NCBI RefSeq assembly: GCF_003609605.1
Contig: NZ_MCHY01000009.1
Coordinates: 1-64,000, forward strand
Direction of reading: 5' to 3'
Source: Ammoniphilus oxalaticus
Lineage (GTDB): Bacteria > Bacillota > Bacilli > Aneurinibacillales > RAOX-1
DNA length: 64,000 nt
Part shown: in pieces, positions 6,075-11,049 of the stretch
Numbering within the stretch: the first letter of the stretch is position 1
Layout: every line of letters begins with the position of its first letter
The notes under the pieces: generated by a model
Told to the model about the DNA's origin: nothing
What the model saw: the letters and a program-made list of their open reading frames with translations, nothing else
Database searches by the model: none
Made by a program: the position numbers and the translations under genes

Positions 6075-6755
6075 TTATTTCACCCACGTTGGCGGGATTT
6101 TCAATTTTAAGCCGATAGGAAGCTTCCTGATCTGGCTGTTTTGAATCCCGTTTAACTTTTGTAGCTCAGGGTAGTTATTCCCGTTACCCGTATACTTTTG
6201 AGCCACCTTCCACAGGCTATCACCTGCAATAAGTGTATATGTCTGCGGAACAACCTTTTTGTTTTGCGGTGGGGGCGCTTCCTTCTTGGTTGCAGTCGTT
6301 GGCGCCGGGGTGTCAGGTTTCGGCGTTTCGATGATTAGCTTCTTCGGAGCAAAAGGGACATACTTCTTTAAAGACATTGTGAAGTTTACGTCAGCGGTTC
6401 CGAAGGATTCGTCGTATTCAAAATTCTCAATTGTAACCAGTTCGTTGATCGCGAAGGAGCCGTTCACGTAGGTATATCGAACCCGTGTTTTTTCTTCCAT
6501 CCACTTTTCAAACTTCTCAATGTAAAAAGATGGATCCTTGAACTCCGTTTCAAGAAAATGATAGTCTTGAGCGGGAAAGAATCCCTCTAGATCAAACTCT
6601 TTTAACTCAACATCCTTGGGCACGTTTACCGTTCCTAGCTTGGCAATCTTAAATGTTTCGCCATCCGCTTGATTCTTCGCATTGATGGTAGGCGGATTCA
6701 CGGGCAGTTGAATCCTTTCCGTATCGTTGTTTACGCTAAAAAAGACACCCCTCAC
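6075..6755 (-). CDS. xkdP: LysM-domain tail protein XkdP-like
   Basis: 226 residues, GTG start 4 nt inside the end of the tape-measure gene. Residues 1-140 are the phage-specific part (IQLPVNPPTINAKNQADGE). A proline- and lysine-rich linker follows at about 145-170, and one LysM domain lies at about 171-222 (YTLIAGDSLWKVAQKYTGNG to LPIGLKLKIP). LysM binds peptidoglycan, so the protein probably anchors the tail tip or hub to the wall during injection. Order tape measure, LysM protein, hub is as in PBSX. Confidence 0.92.
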   Translation of the reverse strand: MRGVFFSVNNDTERIQLPVNPPTINAKNQADGETFKIAKLGTVNVPKDVELKEFDLEGFFPAQDYHFLETEFKDPSFYIEKFEKWMEEKTRVRYTYVNGSFAINELVTIENFEYDESFGTADVNFTMSLKKYVPFAPKKLIIETPKPDTPAPTTATKKEAPPPQNKKVVPQTYTLIAGDSLWKVAQKYTGNGNNYPELQKLNGIQNSQIRKLPIGLKLKIPPTWVK

Positions 6756-9223
6756 GCCTCCACCACCCCTTCAACACTACGCTCCATTTCATCTTCAAAG
6801 TTCTTGTTGATCTTATCGACGATCTTATCTATATCCGCTTCTTCCCGAATTGTGAGATCACCAAAAGAAACTGTTGGGGTTAACGTGATAGATACGTCTT
6901 GAATCGACTTTCTATCCGCGTATTCCAGCAACAGTTTCAAATCCTCATCTGCTATGTTTATTTTATCGTCTATCTTACCGATTTTGTCCAGCTTACCGCC
7001 CGTTGGATTTTTCCCCTTATCACCGCCAGCTAATTCATTAGCCGTTGGATCTAAGTTTTGAGCGGCATCCATTAATTCCAATACCTCTTTAGGTCCGCTG
7101 TCGTAACCCTCTAGCGCATTTGAAATGCCCTTTAGACTTCTTGTAACACCCTTAGATAAATCGGAACCAGCATCATATCCCTTGTTAAATGCGTCCCCCA
7201 TGTTCATGTAGTCAAGTCTTTCTAATTTCTTGTACTCAGGCATGGTTGGCATATTTGACGCGGCATAACTACCAGACATGTTCGACCGCCCGAAACTAAC
7301 AGGCGCGGCTTGAATCGGTTCAGATAATTTTGCTTGCATAGCTGTTATTGCGTTTGTCGCTCGGCTGAAATTTACACTTAGATCCACTTCGCCAACGGAA
7401 TCAATATTTAGTCCAAAGGCACTGTTGAGCCATCCTATAAGTTTGTTCGCGCCACTAATGGCTCCGTTTATAAGATTGGATATAGACTCCAACGCTCTAT
7501 TTACCATGCTTTCTGTACCCGACACAACACCACTCATGACATTAAGCGTGCCTTGTCCCATGTTGTAAAAAGCCATTTGAACCGCGTATGTACCACGATT
7601 CCACGTATTGACTAGGAATTCAGCAGCAACCATCGTGCCATTTATAATGCCATCAAGGATAGATAAGACTAGTACTGATAATCCAAACCACAGCATTTGT
7701 ATTAAAAATATCGTTCCAAACCAACCGTTCATGATTAATTCAAGGACTAATAATATAAAATTGCTAATGCCTATAATGATATTCATAATTGCCGCACCTA
7801 ACCAATAGAAAGATCCCACAATCGCACCAACAACCATCGCTGTTTTTTCGCTCCATGCAATCGTTGCGTAGATCACTAGGGCGATAGCTGCAACGATGGC
7901 TAGGATGATCCATGTTGCAGGATTTGCGGCCATAGCTGTGTTGTAGGCCCACTGTGCTGCAGTTGCTAATAATGTGTACGATCTAATAACCAACATCCGA
8001 AGCGCCACTGCGGATAAAGCAAATCCTATAATAAATAGTATTGGTGCAATCCATGACCAGTTATCAGAGAAGATCCCAGCGACCCATAGGGCTGCTTGTC
8101 CAACGCCTGAAAGAATCCATGCTACAGAGGTTAACCCTATCCCTATAACAGAAAGAATATGATCCAATTTATTTGATTCTACCGCATGGTTGAACATTTC
8201 GATTAACGGTATAAACGCCGCTATCGCGGGACCCAAATGTTGAGGTATTTTTTTAATCAATTCCGTTACAGTGCCAATCCCTTTCGTTATTGGTTCGGTT
8301 AAGTTTTCCAGCATGGCTTCTCCCGCGTTACGAATTGCCGACCGCATAGAATCCAATGCGCCTAATACCGTGCCCTTAACGCCAGCCATTGAACCACCGA
8401 ACTGCTCATTAATGCCTTCAACGACAGCAGCTATTGCTTCGCCAGCACTAACAGCTCCTTTGGTTACTCGCTTTTCCATCTCCTCGATGGACACATCAAA
8501 ATGTTTAGCAAGCATCCCCATAGCCTCTACACCAACATCTTGGAAGCGACGAATCTCCCCTAAAGTAGCCTTACCAGCCAACTGGATGGAACCGAATATA
8601 TCAGCTAGTCTCATCATTTCATCCTTACCTTTACCGAGCCCGGCCACCGCATCACCTATAGACTGCATGATGGGGAAAGTGTTTTGTGCAGCAACGCCCA
8701 TAGCGATCATGTTTCTACTAGATTCCAACAGGTCAGGATATGCAAAAGGGGTTTTTAAAGCGAAAGCATACATATCATCCATGTACTTCTTTGCTTTTTC
8801 GGCACTCCCTAAAAATATAGTGAATGCAGCTTCCGTGCTTTGCCTAAATGCAATCATTTCAAAACCACGTGAAAGCATATTCGATATCATATTTTTAGCT
8901 GCATTGAATGCTTTATAAGCACCCACAGCAGCCAATATCCCAGTTGCATACGACTTTATCGTTGATAGCCCATCACCTAGAGAATTATTAAACCTATCCT
9001 GATTTCGGGTGGCTTGCTCTATAGCACGACCAGTATTTTGCATAGAGGATTGCAGCCGTTCAAGATCTGCCGAAGCATTGGTTATGTTCTTCCTTGCATT
9101 AGCTAAGCTTTTCTGGTCTAGCTGTTGCGTGGTAGAGTCCATTTGCTCCATAACCTTGATCGTACTTTCCATAGCCCGCATGATCTTCATCATCGGACCT
9201 GTTAATCGATCTTGGAGAGACAT
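6752..9223 (-). CDS. xkdO: Tail tape-measure protein (XkdO-like)
   Basis: 823 residues from the ATG at 9223. A TTG at 9244 with a different upstream context is an alternative and the true start is uncertain. The start MSLQDRLTGPMMKIMRAME is typical of Firmicute tape measures. Residues 1-110 are helical with Gln/Asn-rich coiled coil. Several long hydrophobic segments lie in the middle (about residues 360-560), as expected for a protein ejected through the tube into the membrane. It is shorter than PBSX XkdO (about 1,330 residues), which predicts a shorter tail. The gene lies just behind a terminator that follows a lipoprotein gene. Confidence 0.92.
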   Translation of the reverse strand: MSLQDRLTGPMMKIMRAMESTIKVMEQMDSTTQQLDQKSLANARKNITNASADLERLQSSMQNTGRAIEQATRNQDRFNNSLGDGLSTIKSYATGILAAVGAYKAFNAAKNMISNMLSRGFEMIAFRQSTEAAFTIFLGSAEKAKKYMDDMYAFALKTPFAYPDLLESSRNMIAMGVAAQNTFPIMQSIGDAVAGLGKGKDEMMRLADIFGSIQLAGKATLGEIRRFQDVGVEAMGMLAKHFDVSIEEMEKRVTKGAVSAGEAIAAVVEGINEQFGGSMAGVKGTVLGALDSMRSAIRNAGEAMLENLTEPITKGIGTVTELIKKIPQHLGPAIAAFIPLIEMFNHAVESNKLDHILSVIGIGLTSVAWILSGVGQAALWVAGIFSDNWSWIAPILFIIGFALSAVALRMLVIRSYTLLATAAQWAYNTAMAANPATWIILAIVAAIALVIYATIAWSEKTAMVVGAIVGSFYWLGAAIMNIIIGISNFILLVLELIMNGWFGTIFLIQMLWFGLSVLVLSILDGIINGTMVAAEFLVNTWNRGTYAVQMAFYNMGQGTLNVMSGVVSGTESMVNRALESISNLINGAISGANKLIGWLNSAFGLNIDSVGEVDLSVNFSRATNAITAMQAKLSEPIQAAPVSFGRSNMSGSYAASNMPTMPEYKKLERLDYMNMGDAFNKGYDAGSDLSKGVTRSLKGISNALEGYDSGPKEVLELMDAAQNLDPTANELAGGDKGKNPTGGKLDKIGKIDDKINIADEDLKLLLEYADRKSIQDVSITLTPTVSFGDLTIREEADIDKIVDKINKNFEDEMERSVEGVVEA

Positions 9224-9270
9224 GGTCGTTTGTGCTCCTGACAATTTCTCACCAACTTTCGAGTAAAATA

Positions 9271-9342: not shown

Positions 9343-9915
9343 CTATCTTAATTTAATATGAATTTCATCCTTACCGTTTTTTAGGTTAAGGGTTATGCTT
9401 TCGGAAGATGACTCGACTATTTCAGGCACTTTAATAACAACAAAACCGTCAGCTGTAGACAATGGTTGAACATTTTTATTGCTTAGATCCCCGTCTATCA
9501 TAGTAATCAAATGGTTATACTCATATTTATCATCATACATAGCTTTTACTTTAGTACTCCCCGCCAAGCTCGTAAACGAATCTGCCTCCGTTCCATTATT
9601 AGTTACGGAAAACTTAAGAACTAGATACTTATCCCCTTCGTCGGCAGAAGAAGAAAATAAATCATCTTCGACAGATTGGTTAAACTCCCATGAATTTAAC
9701 ACTACTTTCCAATTATTCAAATCGAAATTTTCGCCGAATTCAATTAATGTTCCTTTAGATGATTCTTTTGTTCCTTTTCCATCATTATTGTTAGAATTGC
9801 TTATTTCCTCGCCGATTCCCTCATCGGGTGTATTAGCCACTTCTCCACTACCGCATCCAACCACAGCAACGGATAATGCAGCCGCTAAACTAATTGATTT
9901 CAGAGTTTTTTTCAT
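9343..9915 (-). CDS. Secreted lipoprotein, DUF4352-like, inserted in tail operon
   Basis: 190 residues from the ATG at 9915 (GGGGGAG RBS; the TTG just before it is less well placed). A signal peptide ending in the lipobox AVVGCGSG marks Cys22 as the lipidated residue. A disordered Asn/Ser/Glu/Lys-rich linker reaches about residue 55. The C-terminal domain contains NWKVVLNSWEF, DKYLVLKFSVTNNGTEADSF and IKVPEIV, the immunoglobulin-like pattern of DUF4352 lipoproteins. This is not a tail protein. Its place between the chaperone and tape-measure genes, with its own terminator, makes it a lysogenic-conversion 'moron'. A surface role such as superinfection exclusion is only a guess. Confidence 0.85.
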   Translation of the reverse strand: MKKTLKSISLAAALSVAVVGCGSGEVANTPDEGIGEEISNSNNNDGKGTKESSKGTLIEFGENFDLNNWKVVLNSWEFNQSVEDDLFSSSADEGDKYLVLKFSVTNNGTEADSFTSLAGSTKVKAMYDDKYEYNHLITMIDGDLSNKNVQPLSTADGFVVIKVPEIVESSSESITLNLKNGKDEIHIKLR

Positions 9916-9976
9916 CAATACTCCCCCTAGTTATTTTTTCCTATTTTATCATATATAACTAAAAGAGGATGACTTG

Positions 9977-10569
9977 CTACCTTCTCTTTCTATTAACTCG
10001 TCTCGCTTCTCGATCTTCTTTCTTGACTCGTATACCGATGCTTGCTATTACAAAAGCTTTTTCTTTCCGATCCATCTCGAAAAACTCCCGTGGCCTTATG
10101 CGAAGCTTTTGGAGGGCGTAATGAGCATATCCCGCTTCTGGATCCCGCTCATCAGGCCCTCCCTCTATTAGTTTTTTGCTTCTTCGACATCGTCGTTAAT
10201 ATCGTCCCCGATACCGCTAATCTCCATCACCTCTTCGAGGATTTGATTGGCTTCACCCGCTAAAAACATTTCAGCAAATAGGTTATCAGCCCCTCTAACG
10301 CCGTAGGAATTTTGTAACTCCTCATTGTTTAGGTCGGGTGATACGATAGACGCAACAGAAATTCCACGATTATACTTAATCGGATCGAATACACGCTCTT
10401 GCTTACCTTTACGACCTAGCTTATTAACAAAACAGTTCGATTTAATTTCATCATCTTCCTTAGAGCCAATGGGCCTTAATTCAATTAGTTCGTCAAATCG
10501 CTCCAACTTTAACTTAACATTTTCGGCCTGTCTAACATTACCTTTCATAAACGCCGCAAAACTACCCAT
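9977..10569 (-). CDS. Long tail-assembly chaperone made by -1 frameshift
   Basis: Ribosomes starting at 10569 and slipping -1 at the A AAAAAC heptamer (10177 to 10171) avoid the stop at 10170-10168. They continue for 64 more residues to TAG at 9979-9977. The extension begins LIEGGPDERDPEAGYAHYA and contains LRIRPREFFEMDRKEKAF, then a highly basic tail ending RRVNRKRR. The FFEMDRKEKAFVIASI pattern is typical of the downstream half of tail-chaperone fusions. The expected product is about 197 residues. The extension has no start codon or RBS of its own. In lambda (gpG/gpGT), P2 (E/E') and many other tailed phages the same kind of fusion occurs just before the tape-measure gene. Confidence 0.82.
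10111..10177 (-). other. Programmed -1 ribosomal frameshift signal
   Basis: The slippery heptamer A AAA AAC lies in the correct zero frame (codons AAA AAC) and is followed directly by TAA. After an 8-nt spacer a stem-loop begins: GGAGGGC (10162-10156) pairs with GCCCTCC (10117-10111). An inner stem ATGAGC/GCTCAT (10152-10147 with 10126-10121) encloses a 20-nt loop. Heptamer, spacer length and structure all fit the standard -1 frameshift arrangement. Confidence 0.85.
10168..10569 (-). CDS. xkdN: Tail-assembly chaperone, short form (XkdN-like)
   Basis: 133 residues, ATG start behind AGGAGTGA. It contains FMKGNVRQAENVKLKLERF near the start, a central segment with RKGKQERVFDP, and an acidic C-terminus with EEVMEISGIGDDIN. 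This fits the XkdN family found between tail tube and tape measure in PBSX-like phages. It ends exactly at the slippery sequence, so it is the zero-frame product and the long form shares its whole sequence. The two forms are expected to coat the tape-measure protein during tail assembly and be absent from the mature particle. Confidence 0.9.
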   Translation of the reverse strand: MGSFAAFMKGNVRQAENVKLKLERFDELIELRPIGSKEDDEIKSNCFVNKLGRKGKQERVFDPIKYNRGISVASIVSPDLNNEELQNSYGVRGADNLFAEMFLAGEANQILEEVMEISGIGDDINDDVEEAKN

Positions 10570-10581
10570 TTTAAATCACTC

Positions 10582-11049
10582 CTAATCGTTAATTGGTCTG
10601 AATTGATCTAAGAAATCAAAGTCATCGAATGTGAAATCAGTAGAATCTTGCAAAAAGTCCTCACTGTCTCCATCAAGCGCCGCTATAAGCGCGCTATCAG
10701 GAACAACGTTTTTGATTAGAGCGGTCTGCTTGCCTGCTCTTGATGTAATATCAGCGTTAACCGCCTGTACGTCAAAGATCGGATAGCGACCTGTTCTGAC
10801 ATAATCTAAGGCCATACGGCGCATCTCTGGTCTATGATAGTAAAAGGACATTGAACCTGTACCCTCTGCCCCTACAATCTTAGACCCCTTCATTCGCTTG
10901 CCTACCGCACTAGCGGAAGCCTTAATATATTCAATACGTGCTTCAAAACTAATTAACTCCGCGTATTCATGTACCTGTCCATCAATCGTAATATATACCG
11001 TTCCTTCTTTTGCGCTGATGCCATCAGCATCTTGCATGTTTCTAGACAT
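10582..11049 (-). CDS. xkdM: Tail tube protein (XkdM-like)
   Basis: 155 residues, ATG start behind GGGGGTG. The sequence contains DADGISAKEGTVYITIDGQ, SFYYHRPEMRRMALDY and DFTFDDFDFLDQF, the pattern of XkdM, the tube protein of the PBSX tail. The protein polymerises into the inner tube surrounded by the sheath. It follows the sheath gene at a 13-nt distance, the usual order in contractile tails. Length agrees with PBSX XkdM (about 149). Confidence 0.93.
   Translation of the reverse strand: MSRNMQDADGISAKEGTVYITIDGQVHEYAELISFEARIEYIKASASAVGKRMKGSKIVGAEGTGSMSFYYHRPEMRRMALDYVRTGRYPIFDVQAVNADITSRAGKQTALIKNVVPDSALIAALDGDSEDFLQDSTDFTFDDFDFLDQFRPIND

Follow-up and report, generated by a model that had tools for sequence, protein, structure and literature searches.

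Programmed -1 ribosomal frameshifting is a textbook and well-known route by which long-tailed phages obtain two tail-assembly helpers from one gene. In phage lambda, a -1 shift yields gpG and gpGT at about 30:1; the tape measure protein is bound by gpG, the T part serves to bring in the tail tube, and the same arrangement is broadly conserved in phages with long tails (PMC5009743). A_AAA_AAC is among the consensus bacterial shift heptamers in the GeneTack study, in which 6 to 7% shifting is given as measured for an HK97-like chaperone (PMC3711429).

Here we describe a locus of this kind in the first 64,000 nucleotides of Ammoniphilus oxalaticus contig NZ_MCHY01000009.1 (the whole stretch that was analyzed, referred to below as the window), where an earlier note had proposed such a signal. 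Sequence comparisons make us highly confident that a programmed -1 ribosomal frameshift signal ends the XkdN-type chaperone gene of a PBSX-like contractile-tail prophage.

Results

Gene identity and prophage context

The prophage was assigned to the PBSX-like contractile-tail type on the basis of terminase, capsid and sheath profile matches, and each of its genes from the terminase through the baseplate is an intact open reading frame (ORF) in the window. The gene order is sheath, tube, XkdN, extension, lipoprotein, tape measure, with the tube, XkdN, lipoprotein and tape measure genes on the minus strand. The gene for the XkdN-type tail assembly chaperone (10168..10569, TAA included; 133 amino acids [aa]) encodes a protein that matches PF08890 (Phage_TAC_5) over residues 5 to 132 (E = 3.5e-28; 98.6 bits, cut-off 27), phrog_389 (E = 1.9e-33) and the YqbN structure 3klu (E = 0.0018). 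The gene sits between those for an XkdM-like (DUF2001) tail tube protein (10582..11049; PF09393, E = 3e-33) and an 830-aa tape measure protein (6752..9244; PF20155 TMP_3, E = 3.8e-17; phrog_1068, E = 1.8e-93), with a lipoprotein gene intervening on the tape measure side. The latter (9343..9918), recognized from the ORF list and profile matches, has the lipobox VVGC, a weak DUF4352 match and a match to phrog_806 (unknown function), and it begins just beyond the end of the -1 frame, as had been noted earlier. It is possibly an added cargo gene; tblastn at E = 1e-3 found no relatives of the lipoprotein in 50,697 phage records.

Anatomy of the proposed frameshift site

Read directly, the minus strand around the site is ...GAC GAT GTC GAA GAA GCA AAA AAC TAA TAG AGG GAG GGC C.... 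The slippery heptamer A_AAA_AAC (letters AAAAAAC; 10171..10177) lies in the zero frame of the 133-codon ORF and abuts its stop, which is the first of two tandem zero-frame stops (10165..10170), TAA at 10168-10170 and TAG at 10165-10167. An 8-nt spacer (10163..10170), placed by sequence and folding, separates the heptamer from a presumed stimulatory hairpin (10111..10162); this length is inside the 5-to-9-nt range for stimulatory structures, and the mode in homologs is 7 to 8 nt. The heptamer, the structure and a coding -1 frame by which frameshift sites are recognized are all present. The outer stem of the hairpin comprises 7 bp (GGAGGGC/GCCCTCC, 10156-10162 with 10111-10117), the inner stem 9 bp (10146-10154 with 10119-10127) and the apical stem 4 bp (10140-10143 with 10129-10132). 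The heptamer in its frame against the stop, the spacer and the GC-rich 7-bp outer stem are as the earlier note had read them; its nested 6-bp stem is replaced by the 9-bp inner stem and the apical stem. The minimum free energy of the heptamer plus the downstream 81 nt is -34.3 kcal/mol, compared with -20.8 +/- 3.3 kcal/mol for shuffled sequences (z = -4.09; 0 of 200 as stable), and z is -4.13 against codon shuffles. An Rfam scan of the window gave no match.

The -1 frame extension (9977..10171), identified by translation, homologs and dN/dS, consists of 64 codons (9980-10171) followed by TAG (9977-9979) and translates as LIEGGPDERDPEAGYAHYALQKLRIRPREFFEMDRKEKAFVIASIGIRVKKEDREARRVNRKRR. With tandem slippage, the predicted junction is ...EEAKN-LIEGG... 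and the predicted fusion has 133 + 64 = 197 aa, in agreement with the lengths originally proposed for the open frame and the total product. The accompanying statement that this frame has no start codon stands for codons 1 to 32 and for the upstream overlap, where none was found in the window, and fails at codon 33, an in-frame ATG (10073..10075) with GGGAG 9 nt upstream; this ATG is not conserved, and we do not regard it as a genuine start.

The window has 109 stop-to-stop ORFs with at least 100 codons, and of these the XkdN-type ORF alone has an X_XXY_YYZ motif (Y = A or T) at -7 or -10 of its stop. The bare heptamer occurs 19 times in the window versus 26 expected and is therefore not enriched, so that the evidence is carried by its position, frame and conservation.

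The heptamer is nearly fixed among XkdN loci

Searches by tblastn matched 46 phage records with XkdN and 28 with the -1 extension, and in the closest of the latter the extension and the XkdN frame share exactly one base; extension relatives were found in 19 of the 200 genomes searched. As few loci came from scanning viral and genomic contigs with XkdN peptides, whole genomes were instead searched for the PF08890 family, with Bacillus subtilis as a control genome, which was recovered. The ends of all XkdN ORFs were extracted, the heptamer never being a search criterion. The loci comprise 96 non-redundant and 40 weak-scoring ones, 135 being distinct overall with Streptococcus phage EJ-1 included. 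Those numbered L003 to L026 were found via the extension, so that its presence there is not independent, and most of them were also found in the family search.

A_AAA_AAC is present in 132 of the 135 distinct loci, G_GGA_AAG in two and an in-frame fusion in one; in 134, thus, a canonical heptamer leads into a -1 extension that is open, with a median length of 58 codons. The heptamer is always in the zero frame and within the overlap, either at or one codon before the stop (125 loci) or further upstream (9 loci), and in these nine, where its position is shifted upstream by 10 to 25 codons, the overlap is likewise free of -1 frame stops. The A run is exactly six, followed by C, in 132/132 A_AAA_AAC loci and is never longer. 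A heptamer lost while the -1 frame stays intact, the finding in close relatives that the earlier note had named as refuting its proposal, was not seen in any of these loci. The comparison with PBSX/skin relatives that it had suggested points the same way: YqbN of the B. subtilis skin element ends ...EEAAKN, sharing the AKN end with the window protein, and YqbN-like loci (L050 to L055 and L075) retain both the heptamer and the extension, as does a near relative of YqbN (E = 3e-81).

The exception is phage EJ-1 (NC_005294, about 1370-1390), which keeps the letters AAAAAAC and has one extra A upstream in comparison with phage MismyG. Chaperone and extension there are encoded by one 198-codon ORF (stop excluded), the sole fused XkdN locus; since the extra A joins both parts in frame, the fusion is kept despite the exception. 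The one-base insertion is either a real fusion mutation, by which control through frameshifting was naturally lost, or an error of sequencing within a short homopolymer. The two G_GGA_AAG loci (L174 and L176) come from the order of the window's host and have a strong Shine-Dalgarno-like AAGGAGG overlapping the heptamer, which we take to be that of lambda. The extension is broken in one locus (L013) and undergoes a late frame change in another (L099), and both are possibly decayed prophages. The genome of the window itself holds a second, divergent XkdN-like locus (contig C2, 8991-9200) with its own A_AAA_AAC and a 52-codon extension.

RNA structure in relatives

Just after the heptamer, the mean folding z across 44 loci is -2.5, with 24 of the 44 below -2, and two control sites elsewhere in these genes give -0.13 and 0.07, so that structure is enriched at the site only. 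The first paired base lies 7 to 8 nt past the heptamer in 25/44 loci, and four loci (L110, L122, L126 and L127) have no structure beyond chance. The outer stem shows weak covariation among 22 aligned relatives (paired cells, 79.5% versus 77.8% shuffled, 15/500; covariation score, 89/500), partly because the arms of the outer stem encode conserved residues (EGD and ALH). The case for the hairpin, which we presume stimulates shifting, accordingly rests on energy and position.

Selection on the heptamer and the extension

Constraint on the heptamer was evaluated with 41 clusters below 60% identity, treated as independent, with codon usage taken from the genes themselves. The synonymous choice at the three codons of the heptamer is invariant in all 41 (chance, about 1e-42). 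AAA AAC is never changed to AAG or AAT, and the codon before AAA varies and always ends in A (GCA in 23, GTA in 11, ATA in 5, CTA in 1 and TTA in 1), which indicates constraint on the letters and not on the residues. Elsewhere in frame in the genes of these clusters, A_AAA_AAC was found at 0 of 5,120 positions.

The dN/dS values of the extension indicate that it is under purifying selection: the median over 40 independent pairs is 0.43, none of the 15 pairs away from saturation (pS below 0.5) exceeds 0.38, and Geobacillus phage phiOH2 and a close relative give 0.03. As the -1 frame is the only one conserved as protein past the zero-frame stop, the extension appears to be translated.

Profile comparisons of the extension protein

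No match of the extension to lambda gpT was found by profile comparison, and that to P2 E' is a marginal local one (17 columns, 47% probability), so that its function is assigned by position and analogy. Pfam gave no convincing family for the extension, and a PDB search returned only a designed repeat protein, which is not meaningful. Four PHROG clusters of "unknown function" (10943, 5646, 20560 and 33439) match the extension, and these are probably extension fragments called from internal start codons.

Discussion

Alternatives to programmed frameshifting

The -1 frame might be a separate small gene with its own start, at the codon 33 ATG or by reinitiation after the xkdN stop, next to which the heptamer would be incidental. 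The in-frame ATG at 10075-10073 with its GGGAG is in keeping with this, as are the hypothetical proteins annotated for such fragments in Brevibacillus phages Osiris and Abouo and Clostridioides difficile phage phiCDKH02, and a small gene, xkzB, is reported to adjoin xkdO in Bacillus PBSX regions (PMC9406221). However, in most homologs the codon 33 ATG is replaced by Leu or other residues, the first possible start is scattered from codon 2 to codon 52 and is absent in 6/134 loci, starts mostly lie well within the conserved part, and only 31/134 loci have one in the overlap or among codons 1 to 10, yet conserved residues are present from codon 1. As a separate gene would also leave the invariant heptamer unexplained, we consider it very unlikely.

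The six-A run would also permit transcriptional slippage, with mRNAs one base shorter or longer joining the frames without any slipping by the ribosome. Polymerase slippage generally requires runs longer than A6, whereas the run here never departs from A6 and C; moreover, a hairpin at 7 to 8 nt suits ribosomal slipping, and the G_GGA_AAG of the two relatives is a poor substrate for polymerase slippage, all of which makes this explanation highly improbable. That the site is in a prophage, and that broken extensions such as those in L013 and L099 exist among relatives, could point to a chance alignment or, in a defective prophage, to the decayed remnant of a fusion, with no product made. Given the family-wide conservation, the purifying selection, the enrichment of structure and the intact prophage ORFs of the window, we regard this reading as barely credible.

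Proposed mechanism and significance

With programmed ribosomal frameshifting as the preferred explanation, ribosomes would decode ...Ala-Lys-Asn, and most would terminate at TAA to give the 133-aa product. Facing the GC-rich hairpin 8 nt downstream, on the mRNA entry side, a minority would slip back one base at A_AAA_AAC and read 64 more codons to give the 197-aa fusion. A_AAA_AAC slips less well than A_AAA_AAG in Escherichia coli, so the shift rate in this prophage could be low. By analogy with lambda gpG/gpGT, the two products may be a chaperone pair with a division of labor in which the abundant short form coats the tape measure protein, the presumed client of both forms, and the rare long form brings in subunits of the tail tube protein, the presumed partner of the extension, via its C-terminal domain.

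The near-complete fixation of A_AAA_AAC in XkdN-type chaperones from phages of Bacillota, as the hairpin and the extension drift, raises the tentative possibility, which we hold to be somewhat doubtful, that this comparatively weak bacterial heptamer is retained so that the long form stays at a fixed, low proportion to the short one; the heptamer and not the hairpin would then be the conserved dial. If so, the branch with G_GGA_AAG would be a natural swap experiment.

A 197-aa form of the chaperone, absent from annotation, is very probably encoded by the prophage, and essentially every XkdN-type gene sampled very probably has such a form as well. The earlier expectation that a standard annotation would show only the short form is borne out in relatives, since a joined frameshift product for the xkdN-type gene is marked in 0 of 15 annotated records. 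The comparison gives a simple annotation rule for xkdN-type genes in PBSX-like prophages and phage-tail bacteriocins. Our additions to the known mechanism are modest, namely, that A_AAA_AAC is almost completely fixed in the XkdN family and that orphan clusters can be identified as the extension. We found no open-access paper stating a rule of one fixed heptamer across the XkdN family, which may be undescribed, and no open-access report of a frameshift in xkdN, which is not proof of absence, as the survey of Xu et al. (2004) may include XkdN-type phages.

Comparison with known systems

As in lambda G/GT, a small gene between the tube and tape measure genes carries near its end a -1 shift that adds a C-terminal domain, and the window pair is likened by analogy to the two lambda products, which are made in unequal amounts. 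The window differs from lambda in having A_AAA_AAC, a clear downstream hairpin, a contractile tail and a short, 64-aa extension with no detectable sequence relation to gpT. Contractile-tailed phage P2 (NC_001895) resembles the window in that the annotated -1 frameshift of gpE/gpE+E' likewise lies after the sheath and tube genes and before the tape measure gene; its extension is about 57 aa versus 64 in the window, and its heptamer is T_TTT_TTG versus A_AAA_AAC. XkdN and YqbN of B. subtilis PBSX and skin (PF08890) belong to the same family as the window protein, with low overall identity (E = 0.0018 to 3klu), and the lipoprotein gene ahead of the tape measure gene is a feature of the window in comparison with them. 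In C. difficile phage phiCD508, virions yielded no sign of the XkdN-like chaperone (PMC11948020). In Geobacillus phage phiOH2, XkdN is 62% and the -1 extension 59% identical to those of the window, with the same one-base overlap and the same heptamer; the phiOH2 extension is 4 codons shorter, the difference falling within the hairpin loop region, and its tape measure gene follows directly, the slot occupied by the lipoprotein gene in the window being empty.
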